Assembly: GCA_025058345.1 (NCBI GenBank)
Contig: JANXEN010000002.1
Coordinates: forward strand, 159,679-223,678
Origin: Sulfolobales archaeon
GTDB lineage: Archaea > Thermoproteota > Thermoprotei_A > Sulfolobales > NBVN01
DNA: 64,000 nucleotides
Direction: 5' to 3'
In this document: positions 1 through 44,843 of the stretch, one piece after another
Layout: every line of letters starts with the position of its first letter
Position numbering within the stretch: position 1 is the first letter of the stretch
Notes under the pieces: model-generated
Databases searched by the model: none
Told to the model about the DNA's origin: nothing
The model's input: only the letters and a program-made list of their open reading frames with translations
Position numbers and translations under genes: made by a program

Positions 1-48
1 ATATAGAGGTTCAGAAATAAATGAATTAGCTAGGAGGATGATCTAGTT

Positions 49-492
49 ATGGTTGTTAGGAGAGGTAAGAAAAGCAGGAAGTACAGAGGCTATAGAAATC
101 AGGGATACGGCAGTATAGGACAGCATAGAAAGAGTGGTAGCAGAGGAGGTAGAGGTGCTTCAGGACTTCATAAGCATAAGTCATCATGGCTCGTTAAGAA
201 CTTTCCTGACTGGTACGGTAAGCACGGATTCACTAGACCTTTAGCTACTGAATATAACGCAATTAACTTAGATCAGCTTAATGACTTAGTAAGTAAGTTG
301 GTGAAGGATGGTAAGTTAACATATGAGGGTGATAAGGTAGTGGTTGACTTAAATGCTCTAGGGATTAATAAATTATTGGGTAGGGGTATTTTAAACGGTA
401 AAGTTAAAGTAGTCGTTTATAGCGCTACGGAAAACGCTGTAAATAAGGTTAAGGAATCTGGTGGTGAGGTAGTTTTAACTGGGAAGAGGTAG
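49..492 (+). CDS. rpl15: Ribosomal protein uL15 (L15/L27Ae)
   Basis: Structural protein of the large ribosomal subunit. The 147-residue product has the family's basic Gly/Arg/Lys-rich N-terminal third (about residues 5-50, including SRGGRGASGLHKHK) followed by the globular C-terminal domain. The ATG follows an AGGAGG-like binding site at about 33-38. It lies ten bases upstream of secY, the usual end of the archaeal spc operon, so the rest of that operon should lie to the left of the window. Length and residues are typical and nothing is odd. Confidence 0.96.
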   Translation: MVVRRGKKSRKYRGYRNQGYGSIGQHRKSGSRGGRGASGLHKHKSSWLVKNFPDWYGKHGFTRPLATEYNAINLDQLNDLVSKLVKDGKLTYEGDKVVVDLNALGINKLLGRGILNGKVKVVVYSATENAVNKVKESGGEVVLTGKR

Positions 493-501
493 GGGTCTTA
501 T

Positions 502-1893
502 TTGGTCAACGTTTTAAAGTTTTTCTCAGTGATAGGGGATTACGTTCCATCACCACCTAAGCCGGCTAGGCGTCCAGACCTTAAGTTTAGGCTTTTATTT
601 ACGGCAGCCACACTAATTATATATTACGCTATGGCAAGCGTTATGGTCTACCCACTGAGTAAGTACAACATTCAAGGTATTCAACTACCTGCACTGATTA
701 ATGTGGTTTTTGCATCGCAGCAAGGCACTATCGCTCAACTAGGTATCGGGCCTATAGTTACTGCAGGTTTGATTCTTCAGATATTGGTTGGTGCTAAGAT
801 ACTTAACATAGATATGAGTGATCCGTCAAGCCGTAAGTTATTTACCCAATCTCAGAAAGGTCTAGCGATATTGATTGCGGTTGTTGAGGGTTTGGGTTTC
901 GCGATGTATTACAGGTTGAACCTACCACTAACACTAGCTATATTCATGCAGTTTTTTGTCGGTGCTTTAATTCTGTTAATACTTGATGAATCTATTCAGA
1001 AAGGTTGGGGTGTAGGTAGTGGTGTAAGCTTATTCATCTTAGCCGGTGTAGCAAGAACTATAGCTTGGGACGCTTTCGCACCTATTAAGGTTCCAGGAAC
1101 TGACCAATATCACGGTTTCTTCCCATACCTAATTCATGGATTATTTGGAGGTGGATTAAGCAGTGAGAGACTTTTTTACGGTTTAGCTGAAGGTGTTGAT
1201 AGGACATTACCTTCATTACCAGGCTTCATTACTGTGATAATACTTTCGGTAGTTCTTGTGTATCTTCAAAGTGTTAAGGTGAATATCCCAGTAACCACTC
1301 AGAGAGCTCCCGGAATTAGGACTAAAGTCCCTCTGCAGTTCTTATACGTTACTAACATACCAATTTTGCTGGTCGGTATACTATTCTCTGACCTAATCCT
1401 TTTCTACAATATATCGTCGACCTACCTAGCTAATTCAGCTCCTTGGCTCTCCGAAGCTCTTTCGGTTATGATTACCTACTTGGCGCCCCCTAATTCACTG
1501 TTGGAGATATACGTAAATCCGTTGAGGTTACTTATATATTCTATTTTACTTGTCGGTCTTGCTGTGGTATTTGGCTATATGTGGGTTGAGATCGCTGGTT
1601 TGAACCCAGCAACTCAGGCTGAGAACTTAATAAAGTCGGGTCTTGAGATACCTGGTATTAGAAGGAATCCTAAGGTTCTGGAATCCCTTCTAGCTAAGTA
1701 CATTTACCCTCTAACGATTCTTAGCTCCATCATAGTTGCGTTAGTTGCTCTTACAGCAGATATTTTCAGCGCGTTCGGTACAGGTACAGGCATACTCCTC
1801 TCGATAGGTATTATACAGCAATATTATACAACAATAGCTTATGAGAGGACTTTGGAGGCGTATCCCCTACTAAAGAGGTTAATTGGGGAGTAG
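502..1893 (+). CDS. secY: Preprotein translocase channel subunit SecY
   Basis: Pore-forming subunit of the SecYEG/Sec61 protein-conducting channel in the cytoplasmic membrane. The 463-residue protein shows about ten hydrophobic segments from residue 32 onward. The cytosolic loop TTQRAPGIRTKVPLQFLY (about 265-282) and the later loop ATQAENLIKSGLEIPGIRR (about 373-391) are the ribosome/SRP-receptor docking loops conserved in the family. The start is TTG just after uL15, and adkA follows after five bases, so the three genes are almost certainly cotranscribed. Many surface proteins encoded later in this window would depend on this channel. Confidence 0.97.
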   Translation: MVNVLKFFSVIGDYVPSPPKPARRPDLKFRLLFTAATLIIYYAMASVMVYPLSKYNIQGIQLPALINVVFASQQGTIAQLGIGPIVTAGLILQILVGAKILNIDMSDPSSRKLFTQSQKGLAILIAVVEGLGFAMYYRLNLPLTLAIFMQFFVGALILLILDESIQKGWGVGSGVSLFILAGVARTIAWDAFAPIKVPGTDQYHGFFPYLIHGLFGGGLSSERLFYGLAEGVDRTLPSLPGFITVIILSVVLVYLQSVKVNIPVTTQRAPGIRTKVPLQFLYVTNIPILLVGILFSDLILFYNISSTYLANSAPWLSEALSVMITYLAPPNSLLEIYVNPLRLLIYSILLVGLAVVFGYMWVEIAGLNPATQAENLIKSGLEIPGIRRNPKVLESLLAKYIYPLTILSSIIVALVALTADIFSAFGTGTGILLSIGIIQQYYTTIAYERTLEAYPLLKRLIGE

Positions 1894-1898
1894 GGGGT

Positions 1899-2516
1899 AT
1901 GCTTAAGACTATCATCGCTGTCGGCATTCCTGGAGTAGGTAAAAGTACGGTCCTTAATACAGCTATGAAGGAGTTAGAGTTAAGGGGTTACTCAGTTAAG
2001 GTCATAAACTTCGGTGACTTGATGTTGGATATGTTAATGAAACGTGGATTAGTTAGCTCTAGAGATGACATCAGAAATTTACCGCTCAGCATTCAGCGCG
2101 AGGTTCAGAGAGATGTTGCAGAGAGGATAGGCAGTGAGTTAAGGAGGATTAGAGAAGTAAGTGGTTCTAAGCCACATGTAGTAATCATAGATACGCATGC
2201 AGTCGTGAAGACAGGCACTGGTTACTGGTCAGGTCTTCCAGCTCATGTCATCACTAACATAATGCCTGATTCAATAGTTATTGTCGAAGCGAGTGTGGAG
2301 GAAATTCTAGGAAGGCAGGCTAAAGATTTTGAAAGGAGGAGGAGCGACTACAGTGATGCTGAACTTTTGAACGAATTACTATCTCTGAACAGGTATTTCG
2401 CTGTTTCGAGCGCCAACTTAGTTGGTGCTTCTGTTTACATACTACGTAATAGGGAAGGTAAGGTTCGAGAAACTGCTTCAGAACTAGTTAACTTAATCGA
2501 GAATTTGAGGGGTTGA
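1899..2516 (+). CDS. adkA: Archaeal adenylate kinase AdkA
   Basis: Catalyses ATP + AMP = 2 ADP. The 205-residue product is the short archaeal form of the enzyme, with the P-loop GIPGVGKST at residues 9-17 and a VVIIDTHA strand further on. It is not the bacterial Zn/LID type. The ATG lies five bases after secY, the standard archaeal order secY-adk. Its stop overlaps the start of the next gene (TGATG), which suggests translational coupling. Confidence 0.95.
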   Translation: MLKTIIAVGIPGVGKSTVLNTAMKELELRGYSVKVINFGDLMLDMLMKRGLVSSRDDIRNLPLSIQREVQRDVAERIGSELRRIREVSGSKPHVVIIDTHAVVKTGTGYWSGLPAHVITNIMPDSIVIVEASVEEILGRQAKDFERRRSDYSDAELLNELLSLNRYFAVSSANLVGASVYILRNREGKVRETASELVNLIENLRG

Positions 2517-2977
2517 TGATGTTTTTAGCTCTCTATGTGTTAATGATTTTCGCGATATTCACACCGTTCTCATTATTGTTGCGGTTTATACTTATGAAAA
2601 CAGGTGTTGATGCGGTTCTTAACGAGATTAAGGAATTGACTGAGAAAGCATCTAAGGTGAGCCCTAAGGATAAGAAGATGCGTATGATTAGGGAGAGGTA
2701 TGCTTTACTTAAGAGGAGGATTAGGAATGTATTCCTCATAAACTTATTCACTTTATGGATAGCTATATTCACTGCGGTTACACTATCTAACCTAGTACTC
2801 ATTACGCTGTCAACGAGTTACGGTGTTGCCCTAGGGTTTAGAAGTCCTCTGAGGATTCCTGGCTTAATCACTAATGGGGACCAGCTCAACATTCTCTTAG
2901 TAGTTATGGCAGTTATCATGGCCTATCAACCTATACATAATAAGATATCCACTATGCAGAAGATCTATGAAGCTTAA
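2516..2977 (+). CDS. EMC3/TMCO1 (DUF106) family membrane insertase homolog
   Basis: Small membrane protein of the archaeal DUF106 family, which is related to EMC3/TMCO1 and the YidC/Oxa1/Get1 insertase superfamily. It has one N-terminal transmembrane segment (about 3-24), a charged helical stretch rich in Lys/Glu/Arg (about 38-70) that matches the cytosolic coiled coil of the family, and two more membrane segments (about 75-97 and 122-142). The position after secY and adk is the conserved one in archaea and fits a role in membrane-protein insertion. The start used is the ATG overlapping the adkA stop. TTG at 2513 and ATG at 2519 are also possible. Confidence 0.85.
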   Translation: MMFLALYVLMIFAIFTPFSLLLRFILMKTGVDAVLNEIKELTEKASKVSPKDKKMRMIRERYALLKRRIRNVFLINLFTLWIAIFTAVTLSNLVLITLSTSYGVALGFRSPLRIPGLITNGDQLNILLVVMAVIMAYQPIHNKISTMQKIYEA

Positions 2978-3037
2978 CCCACTAGGCCTTAGATATGGTT
3001 TTAAGCTCAAACCTTAAGATCTTTTGGTGTGTTAGCT

Positions 3038-3277
3038 GTGGCTTACGGTCTAAAATCCCATAGCAAGCGTAGAAGGTCTGTCAAAACTCCTGGTGGGCAC
3101 ACTAAAATACACTACAGTAGGTTTAAGCAAGGGGTTTCTAAATGCGGTGTCTGCGGTATACCGCTTAACGGTATCGTTAGCGGTTCTAAGAGTGAGAAAA
3201 GTGTTGAAAGGCCTTACGGAGGCTACCTATGCCACAATTGTCTCGAATCATTAATAAAACTAATTGTTAGGACTTAA
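3038..3277 (+). CDS. rpl34e: Ribosomal protein eL34
   Basis: Large-subunit protein found only in archaea and eukaryotes. The 79-residue product has the basic N-terminus (HSKRRRSVKTPGGHTKIHY) and a zinc ribbon with two cysteine pairs, C36/C39 (CGVC) and C65/C68 (CHNC). The GTG at 3038 was chosen because it lies eight bases after GGTG at 3026-3029 and gives the usual eL34 N-terminus. An upstream GTG at 3029 overlaps that binding site. It is followed by cmk, a conserved archaeal neighbourhood. Confidence 0.93.
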   Translation: MAYGLKSHSKRRRSVKTPGGHTKIHYSRFKQGVSKCGVCGIPLNGIVSGSKSEKSVERPYGGYLCHNCLESLIKLIVRT

Positions 3278-3298
3278 TAATAATATGGGTGCTGTTTT

Positions 3299-3871
3299 TT
3301 GAAGGTATGTAGTAAGGAGTCATTAGTGATTGCTGTGAGTGGCAGGCCCGGTAGCGGTAAGACCACATTAGCTAAGTCGCTGGCTGATGCGCTAGGGCTT
3401 AGGTACGTATCTTCTGGAGGTATTTTCAGACGAATGGCTGAGAAATTAGGGTTATCCCTAGTTGATATGTCTAGAATTGCTGAAAACGATCTCAGCTTAG
3501 ATAGAGCCATAGACGAGGAGGCACGCAATGAGGCTATGAAGGGCGGGGTCGTCGTTGATGGCCACATAGCCGCTTGGATTCTTAAGGATATAGCCCATAT
3601 TAAGATATCGGTCATCGCACCATTGGAAATTAGGGTTAATAGGGTAGCGAAGAGGGATTCACTAAACTACGATGAGGCTTTAGGCGTCATTAAGGAGATT
3701 GAGGAATCTGAGAGCCGCAGGTTTAAAGCTCTATACGGCTTAGACCTCAGTGATAATACTGTCTTCGACTTAATAATCAATACACACACTTTTTCACCTA
3801 CAGAGTGCTTAAACATAGCTTTAGGTGCAGTTAATGAAGTCTTAAATAGGTGTACATCAGAAAATTTATGA
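3299..3871 (+). CDS. cmk: Cytidylate kinase (archaeal)
   Basis: Phosphorylates CMP/dCMP with ATP in pyrimidine nucleotide synthesis. The 190-residue protein has the P-loop GRPGSGKTT at 15-23, and the SSGGIFRRMAEKLGLSL segment that follows is typical of the short archaeal Cmk. The start is TTG at 3299, seven bases after GGTG at 3288-3291. It sits between eL34 and eL14, the normal archaeal arrangement. Length and motifs are ordinary. Confidence 0.94.
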   Translation: MKVCSKESLVIAVSGRPGSGKTTLAKSLADALGLRYVSSGGIFRRMAEKLGLSLVDMSRIAENDLSLDRAIDEEARNEAMKGGVVVDGHIAAWILKDIAHIKISVIAPLEIRVNRVAKRDSLNYDEALGVIKEIEESESRRFKALYGLDLSDNTVFDLIINTHTFSPTECLNIALGAVNEVLNRCTSENL

Positions 3872-3903
3872 AGGTAGTTATGGAGTAGTGTTAGGTGGTA
3901 TAA

Positions 3904-4227
3904 ATGCCTGCTGTAGAGGTAGGTCGTATATGTATTAAATTACGAGGTAGGGAGGCTGGTAAAAAGTGCGTGATAGTTGACGTGATTGACAATAATTACG
4001 TAGTCATCACAGGCCCTAAAGAGTTGAGCGGTGTTAAGAGAAGACGTACGAATATACGTCATTTAGAGCCTGTTGATAAGAAGGTTGAGGTTAGTAAGGG
4101 AGCTAGCGATGAGGAAGTTATTAAGGCTCTAGAATCAGCTAATCTACTAGATTTTATGAGGGAAAGACTTAAGGTTAGCAAGGAAATGCTGCTTAAGGTT
4201 AAGGCTTTGAGAGAGGGTGTTAGTTAA
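3904..4227 (+). CDS. rpl14e: Ribosomal protein eL14
   Basis: Large-subunit ribosomal protein. The 107-residue product begins with a KOW/SH3-like barrel (VGRICIKLRGREAGKKCVIV, residues 6-25) and continues with the RRRTNIRHLEP segment typical of archaeal eL14. A GGTGG site precedes the ATG by a few bases. The gene is directly upstream of cbf5, as in most archaea. Confidence 0.94.
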   Translation: MPAVEVGRICIKLRGREAGKKCVIVDVIDNNYVVITGPKELSGVKRRRTNIRHLEPVDKKVEVSKGASDEEVIKALESANLLDFMRERLKVSKEMLLKVKALREGVS

Positions 4228-4267
4228 TACTAATGGATCCTTCTGCAACAATTTTTCGGTGTTTTTA

Positions 4268-5332
4268 ATGGATTTAACTTCTGAAGGTTTTAAGTTCGTG
4301 TTAAGTCTTGATTCATACGGAGGCGTAGATAAAGGTTGGTTAATTAAGAGAGATGAAAGCACTGATGAGAAATTCGGGTATTTCCCACCACTAAGACCTC
4401 TAAGTCAGAGACTTAACTACGGTGTAATAGTTATTGATAAACCTCCAGGGCCTAGCAGTCATGAGGTAGTTTCATGGATTAAGACAATGCTAGGAGTCCA
4501 TAAAGCTGGTCATGGCGGAACCCTAGAGCCCACCACTTCGTAAGTGGCTGGGCGGGGACATCCTAGAGTCAGCGGCGTTCTACCAGTTACTTTAGGTTTT
4601 GGGACTAAAGCTGTTGGTATGTTGATGTTGGCTGATAAGGAGTACGTAGCTATCATGCAGTTACATGGTGAGGTGAGTGAATCAAGATTAAATGATGTTT
4701 TGAAGGAATTCACCGGCGAGATATACCAAAGGCCACCGGTAAGGGCATCCGTTAAGAGGGTCTTAAGGGTTAAGAAGATCTACGGAATTCAGATGTTGGA
4801 GTTTAGATATCCTTACGCGTTAATAGTTGTAAGCTGCGAACATGGAACGTATGTGAGGAAGTTAATCCATGACATAGGTGAGGTACTTGGTGTTGGGGCG
4901 CATATGCGTGAGTTAAGGAGGACTAAGACAGGTCCATTTAGAGAGGATGATAATTTAGTTACGATGCATGAGCTTTCTGAAGCATTATATAACTATAGAG
5001 AATTAGGTGATGACTCACAGTTAATGAGATGCATATTGCCTATAGAATACGCAGTTTCACATATTCCTAAGGTGATCATATCTGACGGAGCTGTAGATGC
5101 GTTAGCACATGGTGCAGACCTAGCAGTACCTGGAATAGTAAAGCTCCATAATAACATAAGGAAGGGGGAGAAAGTTGCGATCTTAACACTTAAAGGAGAG
5201 TTGGTGGCCTTAGGGAAATCTTTAATGACCTCGGAAGAAATCAAAGATTCAGATAAGGGTTATGCAGTAAAGAATCTAAGGGTAGTGATGCAGGCAGGGA
5301 CTTATCCAAAAAGGTGGGGTAAGTATAAGTAA
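4268..5332 (+). CDS. cbf5: rRNA pseudouridine synthase Cbf5 (dyskerin homolog), gene split by an intron
   Basis: Catalytic subunit of the archaeal H/ACA ribonucleoprotein, which converts uridine to pseudouridine in rRNA. Read without splicing, the frame stops at TAA 4541-4543. Removing 33 nt (4527-4559) joins exons 4268-4526 and 4560-5332 into a 343-residue protein that reads HGGTLDPRVSGVLPV across the junction, exactly the TruB-family catalytic motif with Asp at about residue 87. The C-terminal PUA domain covers roughly the last 80 residues. The chosen ATG is six bases after GGTG at 4258-4261; an in-frame GTG at 4217 overlaps eL14. The interruption is therefore an intron and not a mutation. 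It is the last gene of the ribosomal cluster. Confidence 0.95.
4527..4559 (+). other. Archaeal pre-mRNA intron in cbf5 (bulge-helix-bulge)
   Basis: The 33-nt insertion folds into the motif cut by the archaeal tRNA-splicing endonuclease. CCCU (4521-4524) pairs with GGGG (4554-4557) to form the four-base-pair central helix. It is flanked by three-base bulges AGA (4525-4527) and ACA (4558-4560). GCCCA (4528-4532) pairs with UGGGC (4549-4553), capped by CCACUU/AAGUGG. Cutting after the second base of each bulge removes 4527-4559 and rebuilds the codon GAU for the catalytic Asp. Introns in cbf5 are known in Crenarchaeota, and their length and fold vary. Confidence 0.93.
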
Positions 5333-5343
5333 GCTCGTGAATA

Positions 5344-5355
5344 ATATATATATAA
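5344..5355 (+). promoter_or_regulatory. TATA box of tRNA-Ser
   Basis: An alternating TA stretch (ATATATATATAA) is centred about 35 bases upstream of the tRNA start at 5385. This is the spacing expected for an archaeal TBP site serving a tRNA with a very short leader. Confidence 0.6.
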
Positions 5356-5384
5356 CCAGCCCTACCTTAAACTAATTAGGATTT

Positions 5385-5471
5385 GCCGGGGTGCCCGAGT
5401 GGTCTAAGGGGCTGGCCTTGAGAGCCAGTGGGCAACAGCCCGCGCGGGTTCGAATCCCGCCCCCGGCGCCA
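5385..5471 (+). tRNA. tRNA-Ser (anticodon UGA)
   Basis: A complete class II tRNA. The acceptor stem pairs GCCGGGG with CCCCGGC, followed by discriminator G73 and an encoded CCA. The D arm begins TGCCCGAGTGG. The anticodon stem CTGGC/GCCAG encloses the loop CTTGAGA, giving anticodon TGA. The long variable arm GGGCAACAGCCC and the T arm GCGGGTTCGAATCCCGC complete it. Class II shape, G73 and anticodon agree on serine (UCA codons). There is no intron. An antisense reading frame over this gene is spurious. Confidence 0.97.
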
Positions 5472-5642: not shown

Positions 5643-6566
5643 CTATATTGCAGGAATCAGTTCCGTGAGCTCTATCGTAAACACGTCACCATCCTTCTCA
5701 ATAACATGCCAGTATACTAAGTAGTACGAATTAGGGATTAATTCAGCTGCCCTCCCCTCAATGCTCTTTATAATGGATTCTACGTCATTAACGTTGGTGG
5801 CCTTTCCGTAGTACCCTGAATACGTTCTCCCGCTAATGCTTATTCTTGTAGAACTAAATGCATCTACTAACCAACCATCCTTTACCGGCTTAACCAAACC
5901 ATCAAATACCACGAATTGAAATACCTCCCTTTGTCCATGACCACCTAATAAAATTATTAGACCTGACATAGCTCCTAAATGAGTTTTCCATGATATATCT
6001 GCATATGGACTTGGTATTATCTGACCATCCATTTGAGCCTGATGTGCTACCTCAAAGTTATGAGTAACCCAAAACCTATTAGCAATTTTTCTAATACTGT
6101 CTTCCTCAAAAGTTGTATCAATAACTATTACATCTTGTCCGCTAAACTCACCTTTAGTCCAATTATATCTAAATGTATATTTCTCGGTTTCCCGCGACGT
6201 TGAATTGAATATTGTGATACGTACTTCCCCAAGACTGTAGAGCTTTAGAAGTTCAGCAACATCGATTAGGCTAGCCATTATAATCCTTTCAGTAGGCGTT
6301 ACAGTAGGTGTTGGGGTTGGTGTAACTGTGACGGTTACCGTTCTAGGCGGTAGTGTTACTGTTGAAGTTACTGTCTGAGGAGGTGGGGTTATAGTTGAGG
6401 TAACAGTAACAGTAGCTGCTGCAGCAGTAGTAGTTACTGTTTGAGTGACTACTGAGGTTACAGTCCTCGGCGGTGGGACAGCTGAAGAACCTGCGAAATA
6501 ACCGCCAACACCAGCAACGATAACCAACACAACCAACACACCAACTAAGGACTTTTGAACACTCAC
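5643..6566 (-). CDS. Exported membrane-anchored protein of unknown function
   Basis: I do not recognise the main domain. The protein (307 residues from the GTG at 6566) starts with a hydrophobic anchor (about 6-27) ending in GGYFAGSSAVPPP, followed by a Val/Thr/Pro-rich linker of about 60 residues with repeated VTVT and TPTP units. A roughly 210-residue domain follows that should lie outside the membrane. The first 38 residues are identical in protein, and 96% identical in DNA, to the N-terminus of the TRAP binding protein at 28895. GTG 6566 is preferred because GGTG lies seven bases upstream and the same arrangement precedes the other copy; ATG 6590 is possible. Confidence 0.75.
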   Translation of the reverse strand: MSVQKSLVGVLVVLVIVAGVGGYFAGSSAVPPPRTVTSVVTQTVTTTAAAATVTVTSTITPPPQTVTSTVTLPPRTVTVTVTPTPTPTVTPTERIIMASLIDVAELLKLYSLGEVRITIFNSTSRETEKYTFRYNWTKGEFSGQDVIVIDTTFEEDSIRKIANRFWVTHNFEVAHQAQMDGQIIPSPYADISWKTHLGAMSGLIILLGGHGQREVFQFVVFDGLVKPVKDGWLVDAFSSTRISISGRTYSGYYGKATNVNDVESIIKSIEGRAAELIPNSYYLVYWHVIEKDGDVFTIELTELIPAI

Positions 6567-6570
6567 AATA
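6456..6570 (-). repeat. N-terminal cassette repeat, copy 1
   Basis: 115 bp covering the start, membrane anchor and first linker residues of the exported protein. It matches 28891-29005 on the opposite strand at 110 of 115 positions. All five differences are third-position synonymous changes. The downstream linkers are similar in composition but no longer align exactly. Confidence 0.9.
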
Positions 6571-6590
6571 ATACACCTTTTATTTAACAT

Positions 6591-28782: not shown

Positions 28783-28890
28783 TATATAAACTTTACTAAT
28801 AAAAACCTTACAGCTCTACGTAAACTTCCAGCAACGTTCCGTAGGTGTAAGACTTATTAGGCCTAAGTAAATTAATTAGTGAAAGGTGGT

Positions 28891-29005
28891 TATTGTGAGT
28901 GTTCAAAAATCTTTAGTTGGTGTGTTGGTTGTGTTGGTTATCGTTGCTGGTGTTGGCGGTTATTTCGCAGGTTCTTCAGCTGTCCCGCCACCAAGGACTG
29001 TAACC
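28891..29005 (+). repeat. N-terminal cassette repeat, copy 2
   Basis: 115 bp at the start of the TRAP binding-protein gene, 110 of 115 positions identical to 6570-6456 (minus strand). It encodes start, membrane anchor and the PPPRTVT beginning of the linker. Confidence 0.9.
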
Positions 29006-30100
29006 ACTACAGTTTCTGTAGGCGCTCCATCAACGGTTACCACTACTGTAACTACTAGAGTTACTGAGAGAGTTACAGTTACGGTTACAGTTACTCCCTC
29101 TCCAACTACTTCACCTACTCCTTCCCCAACCCCTACTCCATCTATACCACCCGGTAAGTATACATTACATGTTGCATGTGTTACGGCTCCCAATCCTTGT
29201 AATCTTAATCCCTACGGTGAGTGTGACCCTCACACGCTAACGCTTAAAGTGTTTAAGGATGAGGTTGAGAAGGCTACTGGAGGCGCAGTTCAAGTAGTTC
29301 TTCATCCGGCAGGTGAATTAGGTGATGAGTTAGATAGTATTGAGTTGCTCCGTGCTGGGGACTTATTCCTAGCTACAGCAGCAACTTCCAGGTTGTCAGG
29401 GTATACCAGTGCTTTACTTTTCGCTGACTATCCTGGACTTTTTAGAAATTTGGATGAGGTTAAGGCTTTCAGTCAGTCTGATGTTGCTAAGACAAGGCTT
29501 AGTAGGCTTGAGGAGTTAGGGCTGATCGGTGTTGGATTCAGCGTTGGAGGTACTAGATACTTCATAACAGTTCCAGGTAAGCCAATAAACTCTGTCAGCG
29601 ATTTAAAGGATATGAAGATCAGAGTCATGCCTACTCCAGTACACATAGAGGCTCTCAAGTATTTAGGTGCTTCACCAATATCGATGCCATATACGGAGGT
29701 CTACACAGCATTACAGACACGTGCTATTGATGGTTTAGAGAACGAACCGCCCTCATACCTATCTATGAGGTTCTACGAGGTAGCACCTAACTACGCATTA
29801 CTACCATGGTTTATAATTCAACACGTTACTTTGATAAGTAAGAAACAATATGACCAACTTCCACCGGTACTCCAGAAAATAGTTATTGATGCTGCTGTTA
29901 AGGCTACCAACTACAAAACTGAGTTCGTTATGATGTTTGAGAATAAAGCCATCGAGATTGTTAAGGAAAGGGGAGCTAACATAACTAAGCCAGACCCAGC
30001 GCCAATGTTTGAGAAGCTAAAAGCATTCATAGAAGCTAATAAAGAGAAAATAGGTTTAGATGTGATCCAGTGGTTAGAGAAATATAGAGCGTCTAAGTAG
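28895..30100 (+). CDS. dctP: TRAP transporter substrate-binding protein DctP
   Basis: Extracytoplasmic receptor of a tripartite ATP-independent importer for organic acids. From GTG 28895 (401 residues) it has a membrane anchor (about 6-27) and a Val/Thr then Pro/Thr linker to about residue 85. The DctP fold contains DMKIRVMPTPVHIEALKYLG and EVYTALQTRAIDGLENEP, where the Arg of KIRV normally binds the substrate carboxylate. Most DctP proteins are free or lipid-linked; here a protein anchor identical to that of an unrelated protein tethers it. It is followed closely by dctQ and dctM. The ligand is unknown. Confidence 0.93.
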   Translation: MSVQKSLVGVLVVLVIVAGVGGYFAGSSAVPPPRTVTTTVSVGAPSTVTTTVTTRVTERVTVTVTVTPSPTTSPTPSPTPTPSIPPGKYTLHVACVTAPNPCNLNPYGECDPHTLTLKVFKDEVEKATGGAVQVVLHPAGELGDELDSIELLRAGDLFLATAATSRLSGYTSALLFADYPGLFRNLDEVKAFSQSDVAKTRLSRLEELGLIGVGFSVGGTRYFITVPGKPINSVSDLKDMKIRVMPTPVHIEALKYLGASPISMPYTEVYTALQTRAIDGLENEPPSYLSMRFYEVAPNYALLPWFIIQHVTLISKKQYDQLPPVLQKIVIDAAVKATNYKTEFVMMFENKAIEIVKERGANITKPDPAPMFEKLKAFIEANKEKIGLDVIQWLEKYRASK

Positions 30101-30113
30101 GCGGTGCTGCTGT

Positions 30114-30611
30114 ATGAGTAATAAATTAAATTCTTTTTTAAAATTCGTAGATAAAGCCCTAACAGCTATTGAGATCCCTATAGTAGTCGTTTGCGGTACT
30201 TTGTTAATTGGGTTACTTCTATACGCTGCTCTAGGTAGATATTTCTTCCACATAGGTGTTCCCTACGAGGATGAATTATCTCGGCTGTTTTTTACCTGGC
30301 TCTCACTGCTTGGTGCTAGTTACTTACTTAGATCCGGTGAACATCCAACAGTATCTCTAATTAGTGATAGAGTTATTGCTAAAAGGAAACGCCTAGGTAA
30401 GTTTTACCAAACGTTCATATATTTATCAATAATCACGTTCTTGGTTATAATGCTGTATGCAACTCTTGACGTCCTACCTCTTTACTATAATTACTACACC
30501 ACTGTGCTACGGGCTCCAATGATTTACTACTACTATGCAGGTGTTGTAGGCCTTTCGTTCATGATTGTTCGGTACTTTATGAAGGCAGTAACGTTTGTTC
30601 TGGGTGATTAA
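30114..30611 (+). CDS. dctQ: TRAP transporter small membrane subunit DctQ
   Basis: Four-helix membrane subunit that bridges receptor and transporter. The 165-residue protein shows four hydrophobic segments and the DctQ pattern PYEDELSRLFFTWLSLLGAS (about 50-69). GGTG precedes the ATG. It is two bases from dctM, so the subunits are cotranslated. Confidence 0.92.
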   Translation: MSNKLNSFLKFVDKALTAIEIPIVVVCGTLLIGLLLYAALGRYFFHIGVPYEDELSRLFFTWLSLLGASYLLRSGEHPTVSLISDRVIAKRKRLGKFYQTFIYLSIITFLVIMLYATLDVLPLYYNYYTTVLRAPMIYYYYAGVVGLSFMIVRYFMKAVTFVLGD

Positions 30612-30613
30612 TT

Positions 30614-31927
30614 ATGTTGTTCGATCCTGCAATAATAATGAGTTTATTCTTCATGTTCTTCTTTATCTTCGTATTTTTAGGTATACCTATAACTTTCTCT
30701 CTAGGACTTAGCGGTCTAATATCACTACTTTTGGGAGGTGCTAAACTCTCCTTAGCTTTCAAAGCGATCTTTATGCCTTATGCATCATTCACAATGTTAG
30801 CCATATATCTATTCACTTTCATGGGTATTGTATTTCAGAAGACTGGGCTTGCATCATTGCTAATCGACGCGCTCGAACCTCTGGTGGCTAAAGTTAAGGG
30901 CGGTTTAGCTATAGTTACTGTTTTGGCAAGCGCGTTCTTCGGAACACTTACTGGGTCAGCAAATGCTACTGCCGCAACTTTCTCACGTCTAATTGGACCT
31001 GAAATGGTTCGGAAGGGTTACCCCAAACCGTTTGTGGTTTCCGTAATAGCTGCATCAGCGCCTCTAGGCTCATTCATACCTCCATCAATAACCGGTATTG
31101 TACTTTCAGTAGCAACTAATACTTCGGTTTTAACTAACTTCATGGCTGGTGCAGCCATAGGATTCCTCGTGATCGGTTTCCTCACATTGTTAATCCTCGT
31201 AATAGCAAATAGGTGGATGAAAGGACCTTCAGCCATATCTGAGGGAGGTTATAATAGAAAAGAAATTGCTGTAAGGATCATTAAGGCGTTTCCACTACTT
31301 CTTATGCCGTTAGTAGTTCTTGGAGGTATATATTTCGGAGTCTTCTCAGTCACTGAAGGAGGTGCAGCAGGTTGCTTAGCGGCATTGATACTTGCAACCG
31401 TTTACAGGAAATTAAACCTTAAGCTATTACGTGACGTCTTAGTTGATTCGGCAGTAACTACTGGAATGGTTATGCTCTTAGTAGGTGTCTCCTACCTTAT
31501 GAGCTATACCATGAGCCTTACAGGCCTTAATAAATCGTTCATCGATATGCTGAGGTCTATGTCCACTACAACTCCTTACTTAGCTTTGTTAACTCTAGTC
31601 GCGATCCTATTGGCTATGGGTTGCTTCATAGACGTAATAGTTCTTTGTATAGCTATGGCACCGCTAGCGGTAACTGCTTTAATGCCTCTAGGTATAAATC
31701 CCTACCACATCAACGCGTTATTCTTAGCAGGCAACTTGATAGGTAACGTCACTCCACCAGTTGGAACAGTGCTTTTCATATCGTTACAGTCACTGGGTGA
31801 GAAGATGGAAAATGTTTTCAAGGCATTATTACCATTCCTACTAATATATGTATTGATATATCTCATAATAACGCTGTTCCCTGAGACTATTTTATGGTTT
31901 CCAAGACTCCTAGGGCTCCCAATATAG
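30614..31927 (+). CDS. dctM: TRAP transporter large membrane subunit DctM
   Basis: Ion-coupled translocation subunit of 437 residues with about twelve hydrophobic segments. Conserved DctM elements include GTLTGSANATAATFSRLIGP (about 116-135), AASAPLGSFIPPSI and, near the C-terminus, GNLIGNVTPPVGT. It ends the dctPQM unit; a T-rich stretch (CCTTTTTAAATTTTATA) follows and may be a terminator before the glycyl radical enzyme gene, which has its own upstream AT-rich region. Confidence 0.94.
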   Translation: MLFDPAIIMSLFFMFFFIFVFLGIPITFSLGLSGLISLLLGGAKLSLAFKAIFMPYASFTMLAIYLFTFMGIVFQKTGLASLLIDALEPLVAKVKGGLAIVTVLASAFFGTLTGSANATAATFSRLIGPEMVRKGYPKPFVVSVIAASAPLGSFIPPSITGIVLSVATNTSVLTNFMAGAAIGFLVIGFLTLLILVIANRWMKGPSAISEGGYNRKEIAVRIIKAFPLLLMPLVVLGGIYFGVFSVTEGGAAGCLAALILATVYRKLNLKLLRDVLVDSAVTTGMVMLLVGVSYLMSYTMSLTGLNKSFIDMLRSMSTTTPYLALLTLVAILLAMGCFIDVIVLCIAMAPLAVTALMPLGINPYHINALFLAGNLIGNVTPPVGTVLFISLQSLGEKMENVFKALLPFLLIYVLIYLIITLFPETILWFPRLLGLPI

Positions 31928-32012
31928 ATAAACTTCCTTTTTAAATTTTATATTTAATTATGTGAAAATTAAAACATAAAAACGTTATCAACATTTTCTA
32001 ATCGATGATGAT

Positions 32013-34454
32013 ATGAATTCTTATAGGTTAGCTAGGTTAGTTGATGAATTCTATAATGAGATAATGAGGTTTAAGCCATCATTATGTCATGAAAGGGCAG
32101 TGATATTTACTGAATCGTATAAGGGAAGTGAGGGTCTACCTCAGGTGATTAGGAGGGCTAAGGCCGTTAAAGAGGTCTTAGAGAAGATGAGTATTTACAT
32201 CTTAAAGGGAGAGTTGATAGTAGGTAATCAAGCATCTAGGCCTAGGGCAGCTCCACTCTTTCCGGAATTCTCTGTATCATTTTTGATAAATGAGTTGGAA
32301 GAAATACCTAAAAGACCATTCGATTCTTTTACTGTAGACGACCATGTAAGGAACGCTGTACGTGAAATTTCTGGCTACTGGTTGGGTAAAACTCATGAGG
32401 ATAGGGTCAAGTACCTCACATCGCTCGTACTGCCTGACGAAGTATTAAGAGCATTTGATATCGATAGTTTCGTACTAAACGACGTTATATATGCAGGTGT
32501 TAGAAAGTCTTCAGGCGACGGGCACATAATACCTAACTACTCAAATCTTTTAAAGTTAGGCTTTCCAGGGATTCTCAAGAAAGTTGAGGATGAGATAAGC
32601 AAATTAGACCTGGCAAAGAGTGAAGCATTTAAGAAGAGGTTGTTTTTAGAAGCTGTCAAGATTGTATATGAGGGCGTTCTGAACTTTGTGGAGCGGTACA
32701 GCATTCTAGCTAAAGAAATGGCTGATGTAGAGTACGATGATGACTGGAGGAGTGAATTAATTACGATCTCAGAGGTTTGCAGTTCTCTGCTTAGCGGACC
32801 TCCTAAAACTTTTAGGGAAGCTCTACAGTTGATATGGTTTGCACACCTAATACTTCAAATTGAGTCGAACGGCCATTCAGTATCTTTAGGTAGATTAGAT
32901 CAATATCTTTACCAATTTTACAAGGATGATATACTTAGAGGTAAGATTAGTAGGGAAGATGCTTTAGAACTCATTAAATGCTTCTTAATCAAGATGAATA
33001 CCTTAAATAAAGTTAGACCTTGGAGTGAGACCAGATATAAGACTGGCTATCCCTTATTCATGACGATAACTTTAGGCGGGCAGACGCGGGAAGGATTCGA
33101 TGCAACTAATGAACTCACATATCTCTTCCTAGAAGCTTTGTCTGAAGTTAAACTCCCACAACCAACTATTATATTGAGAGTTCACTCTAGAACTCCTGAA
33201 AAGCTTTTAATCCACGCTACTAAGGCTCTAATAAAGCATGGCGGAGGATTACCTGCCTTCTTCTCTGACGAAGTTGTAATCCCAGCACTAATGAACATTG
33301 GTATTCGGTTAGAGGATGCTAGAGAGTACGCAATAGCTGGGTGTTCTGAAGCAATCATACCTGGTAAGAGTCTATCCTTCACCGGTGGGGACTGCTACTT
33401 CAACTTGCTAAAGATCTTGGAGATAACTCTGAATGAAGGATGCAATCCTAGGAACGGTTTACGCTTATTCCGAACTTCCAAAATGATGAGTGAAATTAAG
33501 TCCATAGATGAATTTATTGACGAATTTAGGAAGCAGTTAACTTTTTACGCTAAATTCATAGTACCTCTAACATCCGTAACATCTGCTATAGATGCTGACT
33601 TAAATCCAACACCATTTGCCTCATCATTAATAGACCATAGGATTGAATATGGTGCCGACATCAGTGAAGGTGGAGGTCCTAATAATGAGTATTCCCACAC
33701 AATAATTCAGGGTCATGGAATAGCCAATGTTGCTAATGCACTATATGTGATTGAAGAATTAGTGTTTAATAGGGGATTACTTACGTTAGAGGAGTTTAGA
33801 GACGTCTTGCTGAGTAATTGGGAAGGGGATAAGGGTAGGGAGTTGCGACGGCTTGCTATAAGCCTGCCTAAGTACGGTAATGATATGGATTGTGTAGACA
33901 AGTACGTTACGATAATTTCTAGGATGTTCTATGATGAGATAATGAAGTACAGACCCCTAAGAGGGGCAGTATTTGGGTTATCGCTTCAAGGTTTAACGGC
34001 TAATGTCCCAGAGGGTGAGGTAACAGGTGCAACACCGGATGGCAGATTTGCTGGTGAAGCGCTTGCTGATAACGCATCACCGCATCCAGGAACGGATAGA
34101 ACAGGGATTACAGCAACCCTTAAGAGTGTCTCAAAAATTGATCATTCACTCTTCGTCAACGGTAATATATTAAACATTAGGTTCCACCCAAGTGCGTTAA
34201 CTGATGCGTTCGGAAGTGTTGAGGATGCTAAGCTCATTCGATTCGTTAAGATGCTGACGACCTACTTAATAGATTTGAAGGGATTTCAAGTACAGTTCAA
34301 TACGGTATCTGCAGAAATTTTAAGGGCAGCGCAAAAAGAACCTTTAAAGTATGCTAACCTCATTGTGAAGGTCGCTGGTTATAGTGCCTACTTCACATCA
34401 CTTGATAAAAAGCTACAGGATCAGATAATCTTTAGAACCGAGCACATAATTTAA
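32013..34454 (+). CDS. Glycyl radical enzyme 1 (pyruvate formate-lyase superfamily)
   Basis: Oxygen-sensitive radical enzyme of 813 residues. The active-site Cys444 lies in AGCSEAIIPGKS with Glu446, the general-base position of the dehydratase/lyase branch. Gly789 in VAGYSAYF near the C-terminus is the radical site. PFL proper has adjacent Cys-Cys, so this is not a pyruvate formate-lyase. Related enzymes act on glycerol, choline, hydroxyproline or sulfonates such as isethionate. Val is the usual residue after Cys; here it is Ser. The gene follows the TRAP genes and precedes a paralog and the activase, suggesting the TRAP substrate is its substrate. Confidence 0.92.
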   Translation: MNSYRLARLVDEFYNEIMRFKPSLCHERAVIFTESYKGSEGLPQVIRRAKAVKEVLEKMSIYILKGELIVGNQASRPRAAPLFPEFSVSFLINELEEIPKRPFDSFTVDDHVRNAVREISGYWLGKTHEDRVKYLTSLVLPDEVLRAFDIDSFVLNDVIYAGVRKSSGDGHIIPNYSNLLKLGFPGILKKVEDEISKLDLAKSEAFKKRLFLEAVKIVYEGVLNFVERYSILAKEMADVEYDDDWRSELITISEVCSSLLSGPPKTFREALQLIWFAHLILQIESNGHSVSLGRLDQYLYQFYKDDILRGKISREDALELIKCFLIKMNTLNKVRPWSETRYKTGYPLFMTITLGGQTREGFDATNELTYLFLEALSEVKLPQPTIILRVHSRTPEKLLIHATKALIKHGGGLPAFFSDEVVIPALMNIGIRLEDAREYAIAGCSEAIIPGKSLSFTGGDCYFNLLKILEITLNEGCNPRNGLRLFRTSKMMSEIKSIDEFIDEFRKQLTFYAKFIVPLTSVTSAIDADLNPTPFASSLIDHRIEYGADISEGGGPNNEYSHTIIQGHGIANVANALYVIEELVFNRGLLTLEEFRDVLLSNWEGDKGRELRRLAISLPKYGNDMDCVDKYVTIISRMFYDEIMKYRPLRGAVFGLSLQGLTANVPEGEVTGATPDGRFAGEALADNASPHPGTDRTGITATLKSVSKIDHSLFVNGNILNIRFHPSALTDAFGSVEDAKLIRFVKMLTTYLIDLKGFQVQFNTVSAEILRAAQKEPLKYANLIVKVAGYSAYFTSLDKKLQDQIIFRTEHII

Positions 34455-34529
34455 TGGGTTGCCTTAGCTCTCTATTATCTAGCAAAATATAATATGCTAT
34501 AATATCATTAAATTACGTGGAGTTAATAC

Positions 34530-36959
34530 ATGTCATTTAAAGGTGATAAAGATTCAAGAGCTTTACGTATAAAACTACTTAAGAGTCACGTATTAATTGA
34601 TAGAGAAATCGACGTGAATAGAGCTCTATTAGTTACGGAGTCTTATAGAGAGACTGAGGGTGAGCCTCCACCAATTAGGAGGGCTAAAGCCCTACGTAAG
34701 GTATTGTCAGAAATGCCTATACATATATTAGATGGGGAATTAATAGTAGGTAATCAAAGCCATAAACCTAGGGCCGGCCCTCTCTTCCCTGAGTGGCAGG
34801 TAGACAAAATTTTAAACGAGATGCATTCATGGCCTACACGCCCAGGAGATAAGTTCAAGATAACTGATGAGGAGATGCAGTTGTTGAGGAAGACTTTGAG
34901 TTATTGGAAGGGAAAGACTGTAATGGATAGGGTCCTTACGTTACTTCCAGACACTTGTAAGAGGGCTATGAAGTACGGGGTCTTCAGCGTCTATAATTAT
35001 ATAACATCCGGACATGGCCATTTCGTTCCTGATTTCGAGAAAGTTCTTAAGTTGGGTCTTAATGGAATTAAAGATGAAGTGATTAATGCGCTGAATAATA
35101 TAGATGAGACCGACCCTTACTATTACGATAAAGTTATTTTCTATAAGTCTCTACTAATAACTGCTGATGCAGTAATACACTTCGCTAAGAGGTATGCCTC
35201 ACTTGCTAGGGAGTTGGCCGTTAAGGAGATGAACTTACGTCGTAAAATGGAATTAGAGAGGGTTGCTGAGATTTGCGACAACGTTCCTGCAAACCCTGCT
35301 AGGAATTTCTGGGAAGCACTTCAGTCTGTTTGGTTTATATTGCTTACGGCACAAATAGAACAGAACGGTCTCGCAGTGGCGCTTGGAAGGTTTGACCAAT
35401 ACATGTATCCCTATTATATAAACGACGTTAATAAGGGTCTATTGGATGATGAATCAGCTCTAGAGCTTATAGAGGCTTTCTACATAAAGACGAATGTAAT
35501 CAATAAAGTGTACGATAACGAAGGAGCGGTGATAAATGCGGGTCCAGCATTAGGTCAAGTAATAACTTTAGGTGGAGTTACCAGAGATGGTGAGGATGCT
35601 GTAAATGAATTAACTTATTTATGTCTTAAGGCAGACGCTGAAGTAGGTCTTATGCAACCAGACTTCGCCATAAGGCTACACCCGAAAATCTCTGAGGAAT
35701 TTTTGGTGTTCCTAACTAAGCACATAGCTAAGAACCCATCTAAAGTTAAGCTATTTAATGATATGGCGGTTATTCCAGCACTTATCAACGTTGGGGTTAC
35801 CTTGGAGGATGCTAGGGATTATGCTCTGTTAGGATGTTCTGAAGCAATAATCCCTGGCAAGACGTGTAGTGGTGGTAATTTTGGTCAGATAAACTTAGCT
35901 AAGTGCTTAGAGTTAGCACTAAATGAAGGAAGGGTTATGTGGTATTACGATGGTAAGGAATTCCATCTACATCCTAACAACGCCGACGTAATTGTTGGTT
36001 TACCGACCGGCAATCCCGAAGAGTTTAAGACTTACTATGATTTGTGGGACGCCTTTAGATCTCAACTATCCTACGCCGTTAAGTTATTGGTGACGACCGT
36101 AAACATAATTGATAGGGTTCAAGCAGAGTTAACACCGCATCCGCTCTTCTCGCTGGTTACTGAAGGATGCATAGAGAGTGGTTTAGACTTTACTAACGGC
36201 GGAGCGCTTTACAACTTCACAGCACCAATAGCTATAGGACCTATAACTGTCTCAGATTCCCTGGCCGCAATTAAGTATCTAGTATTCGATAAGGAGGAAA
36301 TTACTATGAAGGAATTAATGAAACAGTTGCGCAATAACTTTGAAGGTGGTGATGGAGAGTACTTAAGGTTAAGGCTCATTCATGAATCTCCTAAGTTCGG
36401 TAATGATAATCGGTACGTAGACGAAATTGCGTCTCAGGTAATTAGAGCTTACGTAGATGAGATAAGTAGATATGAAAATCCAAGAGGAGGTAGGTTCGTT
36501 GCCAGTGTTTACTCATTAACAGGCAACGTAAGCTATGGTTGGCGAACAGGTCCGACACCAGACGGTAGGAAAGGAGGCGAACCATTGAACGATAACATAT
36601 CTCCAACTATCGGTAGAGATCTGAAGGGCCCTACAGCAGTTATAAAGTCACTATCACGCATAGACTCCCAACTACTTCCTCAGGGCTACATCTTCAACCT
36701 TAAATTTTCACCTTCGATGATTAATGATGACACTAAAGTAATGAGATTTGTGTCCTTCATTAGGTCATTACTAGATTTTGGTATATTCCATACGCAGTTC
36801 AACATCATATCTGCGGATACCTTGAGGGAGGCTCAGAAACATCCTGAAAGGTATCGGGGTCTACTAGTTAGAGTCGCTGGTTATTGTGCTTACTTTGTAG
36901 AATTAAGCAAAGAGGTTCAAGATCACATAATAGCTAGAACTGAGCATGAAAACGTTTGA
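34530..36959 (+). CDS. Glycyl radical enzyme 2 (pyruvate formate-lyase superfamily)
   Basis: Second, clearly paralogous enzyme of 809 residues. Cys436 and Glu438 lie in LGCSEAIIPGKT, and Gly784 in VAGYCAYFVELSKEVQDHI. It shares the Ser after the active-site Cys with enzyme 1 but differs widely around the substrate pocket, so the two may act on different substrates or as partners. It is separated from enzyme 1 by 75 bases that contain TATA-like AATATAATATG, so separate regulation is possible. It is followed 21 bases later by the activase. Confidence 0.92.
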   Translation: MSFKGDKDSRALRIKLLKSHVLIDREIDVNRALLVTESYRETEGEPPPIRRAKALRKVLSEMPIHILDGELIVGNQSHKPRAGPLFPEWQVDKILNEMHSWPTRPGDKFKITDEEMQLLRKTLSYWKGKTVMDRVLTLLPDTCKRAMKYGVFSVYNYITSGHGHFVPDFEKVLKLGLNGIKDEVINALNNIDETDPYYYDKVIFYKSLLITADAVIHFAKRYASLARELAVKEMNLRRKMELERVAEICDNVPANPARNFWEALQSVWFILLTAQIEQNGLAVALGRFDQYMYPYYINDVNKGLLDDESALELIEAFYIKTNVINKVYDNEGAVINAGPALGQVITLGGVTRDGEDAVNELTYLCLKADAEVGLMQPDFAIRLHPKISEEFLVFLTKHIAKNPSKVKLFNDMAVIPALINVGVTLEDARDYALLGCSEAIIPGKTCSGGNFGQINLAKCLELALNEGRVMWYYDGKEFHLHPNNADVIVGLPTGNPEEFKTYYDLWDAFRSQLSYAVKLLVTTVNIIDRVQAELTPHPLFSLVTEGCIESGLDFTNGGALYNFTAPIAIGPITVSDSLAAIKYLVFDKEEITMKELMKQLRNNFEGGDGEYLRLRLIHESPKFGNDNRYVDEIASQVIRAYVDEISRYENPRGGRFVASVYSLTGNVSYGWRTGPTPDGRKGGEPLNDNISPTIGRDLKGPTAVIKSLSRIDSQLLPQGYIFNLKFSPSMINDDTKVMRFVSFIRSLLDFGIFHTQFNIISADTLREAQKHPERYRGLLVRVAGYCAYFVELSKEVQDHIIARTEHENV

Positions 36960-36980
36960 TAAGTCATTTAAAGTGGTTTT

Positions 36981-37910
36981 ATGCAGCAGATCAAAGGACT
37001 AATATTCAACGTCCAAAGATATTCGATACATGATGGTCCAGGCATACGGACCTTAGTGTTCATTAAAGGATGTCCATTAAGATGTCTATGGTGCTGTAAC
37101 CCAGAAGGTCAGCTGGCAAGACCTGAGGTCATGTACTTTAGAAATTATTGTACCAGATGTAGGAAATGTGTTGAGGTCTGTCCCGCTGGAGCAATTAAGT
37201 TACGGAACGGTGATGTGGTGTTTGATAAGAATTTATGTAATTCTTGCGGTACTTGTGTTGAGGTATGTCCTAATAACGCTAGGAAGTTAGTTGGTATGTA
37301 CGTAACGGTGGACGACATTTTAAAGGAAGTTCTGAAGGATATGAAATTCTATGCAAGGAGTGGCGGTGGATTGACAGTTGGAGGTGGTGAGCCATTCTCC
37401 CAACATGAGTTTCTTAAGGAATTACTTTGGAAGGCTAAAGAGTACTCCATACATACAGCTGTTGAGACGAGCCTTTATACGAGTACCAATCTAATCAGCG
37501 GTGTTATGAAGCATGTTGATTACTTATTTGTTGATATTAAACACATAGACCCAGTTAAACATATGAAGTTGACTGGGGTTTCAAATGAGCTAATACTCAA
37601 TAATATAAGGTACGTTATTGAAGAAGGGTTAATAGGTCCAAAGGATTTCGTAATAAGGATTCCGATAATACCTAACGTTAACGACGACCATGAAAATTTG
37701 AAGGGCATCTCCGAATTCATTAGTTCTCTTAAATATGAGGTATCGGTCGAACTCCTTCCATACCATGAACTTGGAAAGCATAAGTATGAAGCTTTAGGAA
37801 GAGATTACCCGCTTAGCAGTTTAACATCTGTATTCATACCGCCTAAAGAGCATATGATTAAGGTTATTGAATTCTTAACTTCATTAGGGGTTAGGATAGT
37901 TAATACTTGA
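36981..37910 (+). CDS. Glycyl radical enzyme activase (radical SAM)
   Basis: Installs the glycyl radical using S-adenosylmethionine and a [4Fe-4S] cluster. The 309-residue protein has the radical SAM motif C31-x3-C35-x2-C38 in KGCPLRCLWCCNPEG. After it is a two-cluster ferredoxin insert with Cys57/60/63/67 and Cys86/89/92/96, as in activases of the dehydratase/decarboxylase branch, which PFL-AE lacks. GGEPFSQ marks the SAM-binding GGE motif. One activase presumably serves both enzymes. It overlaps the start region of the flavoprotein. Confidence 0.94.
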   Translation: MQQIKGLIFNVQRYSIHDGPGIRTLVFIKGCPLRCLWCCNPEGQLARPEVMYFRNYCTRCRKCVEVCPAGAIKLRNGDVVFDKNLCNSCGTCVEVCPNNARKLVGMYVTVDDILKEVLKDMKFYARSGGGLTVGGGEPFSQHEFLKELLWKAKEYSIHTAVETSLYTSTNLISGVMKHVDYLFVDIKHIDPVKHMKLTGVSNELILNNIRYVIEEGLIGPKDFVIRIPIIPNVNDDHENLKGISEFISSLKYEVSVELLPYHELGKHKYEALGRDYPLSSLTSVFIPPKEHMIKVIEFLTSLGVRIVNT

Positions 37911-37921
37911 GGTGTTATTTG

Positions 37922-42473: not shown

Positions 42474-42593
42474 TTCATCACCACTTATGTAATATATAAC
42501 GGCGTTATTAAATCTATCACACAATGATTTGGAGATATACATCTACGTATGTGGGGGATATGATGAGTGTTGATGGGTAGATTTATTTTAAAG

Positions 42594-42603
42594 CTTATAT
42601 ATC
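42594..42603 (+). promoter_or_regulatory. TATA box of the uS13 operon
   Basis: CTTATATATC about 45 bases upstream of the uS13 ATG, with GGTGG at 42631-42635 in the leader. It should drive the long ribosomal/RNA polymerase/isoprenoid transcript. Confidence 0.65.
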
Positions 42604-42644
42604 TTTTAGTGTATACTGAAAAGGCGTAATGGTGGTAATCACTA

Positions 42645-43094
42645 ATGCCTGAAGCTACGTTTAAACATATAGTTAGGGTAGCTGGCACTGATCTGAATGG
42701 CAATCTTAAACTGCAGTATGGTTTATTGAGGATTAAGGGGGTTGGCTACCAGCTAGCTACTTATGTCGTTAGGGTTTTAGGTCTGAGCCCTAGTTTACGT
42801 GTTGGGTATCTCTCAGATAGTGATGTTAAAAACATAGAAAGCGTTTTAGCTAATCCCCTGAACTACGGCATACCTCCTTGGGCTTTAAACAGGAGGAAGG
42901 ACTACGCATCAGGTAACGACCTACACTTCATCGGTGCTGACCTTATGTATGTTGCTAGAGAAGATATTGAGAGGGAGAAGAGGATTAAGTCTTGGAGAGG
43001 TATTAGACATGCTTTAGGTCTTAAGGTTAGAGGGCAGAGGACCCATACGACAGGTAGGTTAGGCCCTACCTTAGGTGTTAGTAAGAAGAAGTGA
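42645..43094 (+). CDS. rps13: Ribosomal protein uS13
   Basis: Head protein of the small subunit, in contact with the large subunit and P-site tRNA. The 149 residues include IKGVGYQLATYVVRVLGL (helix-two-turns-helix, about 30-47) and the basic C-terminus LKVRGQRTHTTGRLGPTLGV. First gene of the archaeal alpha-like operon rps13-rps4-rps11-rpoD, in the standard order. Confidence 0.96.
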   Translation: MPEATFKHIVRVAGTDLNGNLKLQYGLLRIKGVGYQLATYVVRVLGLSPSLRVGYLSDSDVKNIESVLANPLNYGIPPWALNRRKDYASGNDLHFIGADLMYVAREDIEREKRIKSWRGIRHALGLKVRGQRTHTTGRLGPTLGVSKKK

Positions 43095-43100
43095 TGATTT

Positions 43101-43601
43101 ATGGGAGATCCTAGGAAACCTCGTAAGAAGTGGGAGAGGCCGGGACATCCATGGATTAAGGATAGGTTGGCTAGGGAGTTAGAACTTATTGGTAAGTATG
43201 GGTTGAGGAACAAGAGGGAGATTTGGGTTGCTCAAACAGTACTTAGGGAGTTGAGGGGGAAGGCTAAAGCATTACTTTCTTTACCTCCTGACGTTAGGGT
43301 TGTTAAGGAAAAGCAGTTAATTTCGAAGGTCTATACTATGGGCCTTCTAGAAAGTGAAAACTCTGTTCTGGAGGATATCCTCGGCCTAGATGTTGAGCAT
43401 CTACTGGAGAGGCGGTTGCAGACCATAGTATTTAAGAAAGGTCTTGCTAAGAGCGTCTACCATGCTAGGCAGTTAGTAGTTCATGGTCATATAGCGATAG
43501 GTTCTCGTAGGGTTACCTCACCTGGGTATTTAGTCCCTAGAAGTGAGGAAAACTTAATTACGTTGGTCTCTAAGATACCTCAGGTAGCTGTTAGAGGGTA
43601 G
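43101..43601 (+). CDS. rps4: Ribosomal protein uS4
   Basis: Primary 16S rRNA-binding protein of the small subunit. The 166-residue product opens with the archaeal [15 protein letters not shown] motif and contains the S4 RNA-binding domain ([20 protein letters not shown], about 119-138). ATG directly follows uS13. Confidence 0.96.
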
Positions 43602-43609
43602 GTGGTTAT

Positions 43610-44008: not shown

Positions 44009-44017
44009 GTGGATTTA

Positions 44018-44842: not shown

Positions 44843-44843
44843 T

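Follow-up and report, generated by a model that had tools for sequence, protein, structure and literature searches.

The window analysed here is a stretch of 64,000 nucleotides from a Sulfolobales archaeon, in which two genes on opposite strands open with almost the same DNA (Table 1). One of them encodes the receptor DctP; the DctQ- and DctM-like ORFs (30114..31927) follow directly 3' of it, and the three form one operon. The stretch 28895-39664 starts with this TRAP operon and continues with two glycyl-radical-enzyme-like proteins of 813 and 809 aa, one protein like a radical SAM activase, and one flavoprotein like a fumarate reductase; judging from names read from the sequence, the region is likely an anaerobic catabolic cluster. 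The other gene lies on the minus strand, and an intact ORF is observed there. At lower coordinates, a cbf5/truB-type pseudouridine synthase gene (4217-5332) contains a short in-frame interruption with a stop codon between the motifs HGGTLEP and RVSGVLPV. The corresponding gene of the congeneric genome G001 (L038:1153-2272) is interrupted at the same position, and the interruption resembles the known crenarchaeal cbf5 intron.

Table 1. Genes and shared segments at the two sites of the window
Feature	Position	Strand	Remarks
Cassette copy 1	6456..6580	-	ribosome-binding site, likely GTG start at 6566, MSVQKSLVGVLVVLVIVAGVGGYFAGSSAVPPPRTVT (putative membrane helix), start of linker
Gene of unknown function	5643..6566	-	intact ORF; anchor, Thr/Val linker ~6300-6460, soluble domain ~5646-6300
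Cassette copy 2	28880..29005	+	ribosome-binding site, likely GTG start at 28895, same peptide, start of linker
DctP, TRAP-transporter solute receptor (bears cassette copy 2)	28895..30100	+	PF03480, E=7.1e-62
DctQ-/DctM-like membrane subunits, same TRAP transporter	30114-30611, 30614-31927	+	assigned by position and hydrophobicity

The preliminary description of this DNA had claimed that the two genes share 115 bases. This is confirmed: positions 6570-6456 of the minus strand and 28891-29005 of the plus strand are identical at 110 of 115 bases, and all five differences are synonymous. A gapped match is wider, extending over 6580-6456 with 94.4% identity over 125 nt and taking in the GGTG ribosome-binding site. 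The identity breaks off sharply, at the ribosome-binding site and start codon on one side and in the Thr/Val-rich linker on the other. Both genes likely start at the GTG codons listed in Table 1, with the ATG at 6590 as another possible start for the minus-strand gene. The shared peptide has the look of a membrane anchor at the N-terminus, with a Thr/Val/Pro linker after it. The mature domains are unrelated, as had also been stated. DctP belongs to PF03480 (E=7e-62), while the soluble domain of the minus-strand protein has no Pfam match, its NCBIfam hits are spurious and far below the cut-off, and a single-sequence structure model of it was useless (mean pLDDT 36.9). When the codons of the same 36 residues were chosen independently according to the codon usage of the host genome, 29 +/- 3.7 base differences were expected, and none of the 200,000 simulations gave 5 or fewer, the number observed.

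The host genome (G000) is a Sulfolobales MAG of 1.36 Mb in 54 contigs, 82.6% complete, from the Zestosphaera family, to which Zestosphaera tikiterensis also belongs. Cassette DNA is present in only 4 of the 31 genomes of this family, namely G000, G001 of the same genus, and G004 and G006 of other genera; all four are incomplete MAGs, with one genome per species. A search of the whole host genome, proposed in the preliminary description, revealed at least six near-identical copies and, in addition, four that have diverged. Four of the near-identical copies lie outside the window, and window copy 1 is 92-99% identical to them. Apart from DctP and the minus-strand gene, the near-identical copies head two TAXI-type TRAP receptor genes (contigs C44 and C1) and two genes truncated by contig ends (C50 and C51). 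The C51 gene probably encodes a TctC-type receptor, because its upstream region matches the G001 contig C8, which is linked to the TctC contig C26: the cassette end of C8 overlaps the start of C26 exactly over 94 nt, and the linker recurs in the TctC gene that C26 carries. G001 has its own version of the cassette at about 8 places, and G004 and G006 each have their own version as well. In total, the genes that bear cassettes are of the DctP, two TAXI, TctC, and LivK-like receptor types, together with the one minus-strand protein of the window. In other genomes of the family, only weak signs of homogenisation at the DNA level were found (70-72% in G005). Anchors of other receptors in G005 and G009 lie near contig ends (L073 = G005:C55, L075 = G005:C12, and L089 = G009:C88), hinting at repeats there, with the DNA identity of the G005 copies found being only 70-72%. 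Additionally, a truncated ORF in G004 (48 aa; L046:2919-3014, on C77) resembles the cassette and is probably a decayed receptor gene.

Copies that are numerous, dispersed, and found on both strands might be expected of a small unit that transposes or integrates, or of a programmed switching system, and the right end of a 23.4-kb difference between G000 and G001 falls at the DctP cassette. However, neither terminal repeats nor a recombinase were seen beside the two window copies. Each near-identical copy opens an ORF in frame, no free copies away from gene starts were found, and all orthologous sites tested carry the cassette with their flanks unchanged. A mobile origin is thus very improbable, and the active reuse of a cassette, as the preliminary description put it, gains no support.

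The receptor genes TAXI-A and TAXI-B are ideal for separating the history of the anchor from that of the binding domain, because both are present in G000, G001, G004, and G006. The binding domains of TAXI-A and TAXI-B are 34-39% identical within a genome, compared to 74-85% between orthologs of different genomes. The anchor-plus-linker DNA of the two genes is 95% identical over 244 nt in G000, 98% over 237 nt in G004, and 92% over 247 nt in G006, and it differs from genome to genome. It can be seen that the binding domains group strictly by orthology, whereas the anchor-plus-linker DNA groups strictly by genome. In AU tests, a clade of all TAXI-A cassettes was rejected (p=2.6e-8), and for the binding domains every within-genome pairing was rejected (p=1e-6 to 5e-81). 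Both the identity matrix and the AU tests indicate that the copies of one genome resemble each other more closely than orthologous copies from different genomes do. Even the unrelated LivK-type and TctC receptors of G004 are 94.5% identical over 218 nt. A comparison of synonymous divergence, which had been recommended at the outset, agrees with these results: dS is 0-0.54 for cassettes within a genome versus 1.2-1.7 for the binding domains of orthologs from the two congeners. Because a single cassette measures only about 90-120 nt, few branches are resolved in trees built from the anchor alone. An ancient N-terminus shared by distant orthologs was not found; the architecture is common, and the DNA is specific to each genome. 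Recent segmental or whole-gene duplication was rejected, given that the identity ends in the linker and that the binding domains are either 34-39% identical (TAXI-A and TAXI-B) or unrelated.

In G000, the differences between anchors are almost exclusively silent, with 0-2 amino-acid changes versus 1-8 silent changes per pair, and therefore purifying selection on the helix also acts. Selection on the peptide combined with biased codon use could in principle account for such silent differences without any recombination. This is exceedingly improbable, and codon bias or protein-level selection alone is refuted by the genome-specific silent sites: the five observed differences stand against 29 expected, and synonymous sites are held in common within genomes, not between them. 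Moreover, the identity extends into the Thr/Val linker, whose peptide sequence can vary freely from genome to genome. Nor is there convergence among control receptors from these genomes. BMP-type and LivK-type controls have similar helices and Thr/Val linkers, and their anchors follow orthology, in all four genomes for the LivK type and between the two congeners G000 and G001 for BMP.

The genes around the cassettes have remained in place. The upstream genes of TAXI-A, TAXI-B, and C51 in G000 match those of the G001 cassettes at the end of C29, the end of C3, and the start of C8, respectively, and the downstream genes of TAXI-A and TAXI-B also match between the two genomes. The continued orthology of the flanking genes fits replacement in place rather than insertion or exchange of flanks. 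Within the cassettes, the copies are mosaic. In a four-gamete test of the variable sites of G000, 10 of the 15 informative pairs failed, with all four combinations being present. The G001 cassettes at the two ends of C29 have the anchor and upstream bases in common (97% over 158 nt); their linkers differ, one being the TAXI-B linker and the other the TAXI-A/TctC linker. The cassettes at the ends of C29 (L034/L035) point outward, and recombination between them could invert this 27-kb contig. Upstream of position -21, most of the G001 DctP cassette (dS 0.54) has escaped conversion, and therefore homogenisation is incomplete.

Gene conversion was one of several options named in the preliminary description, and it is the one that these results strongly favor: anchors cluster by genome, mature domains cluster by ortholog, flanks are kept, and copies are mosaic. 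The 115 shared bases very probably belong to a set of dispersed anchor segments that evolve in concert through ectopic, non-reciprocal homologous recombination. In each genome, several genes for exported receptors start with an anchor-plus-linker segment, about 110-250 bp long and homologous among them, and repair or recombination would copy this segment from gene to gene. The tracts would be limited by the limits of homology, at the ribosome-binding site upstream and the linker downstream, so that promoters and binding domains would retain their own ancestry. The process may well be ongoing and may depend on RadA-type homologous recombination, and selection on the anchor peptide would keep the copies alike enough for recombination to continue. 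Read from the sequences, the pattern is very probably one of concerted evolution confined to a small module, together with purifying selection that acts on the anchor peptide. In rRNA operons and other repeats, gene conversion makes the similarity within a genome exceed that between species. Unlike the rRNA operons, in which whole functional units are homologous, the module here measures 0.1-0.25 kb and lies inside different genes.

Recent domain shuffling, in which each gene was newly fused to a copied anchor as its 5' end, had been suggested as well, and it is unlikely. The DctP, TAXI-A, TAXI-B, and TctC genes of G001 already possess such an anchor and linker, the DctP binding domain being 86% identical to its ortholog on G001 contig C9. 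TAXI genes in G004 and G006 and the TctC gene in G004 are anchored likewise, and the flanks of the TAXI genes are conserved. Since orthologs in relatives carry the same kind of anchor and linker, the architecture predates the identity in sequence. Shuffling is therefore unneeded for these four receptors, whose orthologs are anchored and whose anchor sequences were overwritten genome by genome. A possible exception is the minus-strand gene of the window, whose protein occurs with the cassette only in G000 and has no ortholog in the other cassette-bearing genomes, G001, G004, and G006; a one-off capture is possible for it. Relatives of this protein with 22-31% identity were found in G005, G008, G009, and G011, from four other genera of the family, and they have different anchors wherever the N-terminus can be read. 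The gene may have received its cassette once, either in a capture event or because an older anchor was converted.

The minus-strand gene also lies inside a segment of 23.4 kb (5471-28894), between the 3' end of a tRNA-Ser gene and the start codon of DctP, which is absent from the same site in G001; this counts in favor of a one-off capture of the anchor by this gene. G001 contig C9 is collinear with positions 2-5470, 28895-39552, and 42582-50627 of the window, and in it DctP follows directly after tRNA-Ser. The right border of the segment is the DctP cassette itself, and a chimeric join at this border is possible. Two other origins of the difference were rejected. An inversion through both window cassettes has the wrong geometry, and the segment lacks a collinear counterpart in the examined part of G001; an integration at tRNA-Ser with duplication of the 3' end would leave a repeat at the other border, which has none.

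Draft contigs end inside cassettes, twice in G000 and at seven ends in G001, with several exact overlaps of 141 nt, and some joins of nearby genes are unsure and could be wrong. An assembly artefact, with copies created or homogenised by repeat collapse or chimeric joins, is nevertheless barely conceivable as the source of the pattern. The same pattern recurs in four separately assembled genomes, of which those traceable to a named record stem from different projects; copies within long contigs differ at distinct silent sites, and breaks of this kind are expected of true near-exact repeats. The TAXI genes of G004 and G006 and both window copies are read through without interruption, and the central result is therefore independent of the doubtful joins.

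Possible roles of the anchor are suggested by systems described in other archaea. Sulfolobus receptors with class III signal peptides have been reported to form a bindosome (PMC4371748, PMC2910488). Those receptors come from the same order and have an N-terminal hydrophobic segment, and the PibD-type peptidase and pilus-type ATPases are matched here: a gene of a prepilin-type peptidase (PF01478) is present in G000 (C11:39509) and also in G001, G004, and G006, alongside pilus-type ATPase genes. The residues before the helix are QKS-L or QRS-L in G000 and QKS-L in G001, which is compatible with cleavage by a prepilin-type peptidase. In contrast to the Sulfolobus case, the cleavage-type motif is confined to the G000 and G001 anchors and absent from those of G004 and G006, and the receptors here are known from sequence alone. 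Tentatively, and with rather low probability, the anchor might serve as a common assembly or sorting tag, whereby an identical helix, maintained by gene conversion, would let receptors of unrelated folds co-assemble in a bindosome-like surface array or use one partner, and the module would spread to new exported proteins such as the minus-strand protein. It is more economical to regard the homogeneity as a by-product of recombination between constrained sequences than as selected co-assembly. Among the Haloferax volcanii adhesion pilins PilA1-PilA6, the N-terminal hydrophobic domain is almost completely conserved (PMC4371748), and a set of exported proteins has it in common, as here. However, those are pilins in which this domain drives pilus assembly, whereas the present proteins are receptors of several unrelated families; the likeness rests on the conserved hydrophobic domain, and the genome-specific identity at the DNA level was shown for the receptors. 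In the mtrA-1 and mtrA-2 genes of methanogens, long-lasting gene conversion is confined to one domain (Wang et al. 2015, PMC4632066). This is also a domain-limited conversion in archaea that gives transmembrane and soluble parts separate histories. In those two genes, which are homologous and lie in one operon, the soluble domain is homogenised while the membrane parts differ, whereas here it is the membrane anchor that is homogenised, across many dispersed genes with mostly non-homologous soluble domains.

Concerted evolution is a known process, and what is new is its limitation to a module across mostly non-homologous receptor genes. In the literature searched, no report was found of signal or anchor peptides that evolve in concert among unrelated proteins of archaea. 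Most discussions of gene conversion deal with whole duplicated genes, and in the present case it concerns about 110-250 bp joined to main domains that are mostly not homologous. One protein thus contains two separately readable histories, a situation replicated in four genomes with controls built in. The finding is also a warning that N-terminal similarity is unfit for inferring the kinship of such receptors, and the cassettes account for the breaks at receptor genes in draft assemblies of these uncultured, heat-loving archaea. Moreover, they constitute a natural gauge of the minimal homology that recombination needs in this group. Should selection maintain the homogeneity, it would point to a common partner or a common assembly of archaeal surface receptors.
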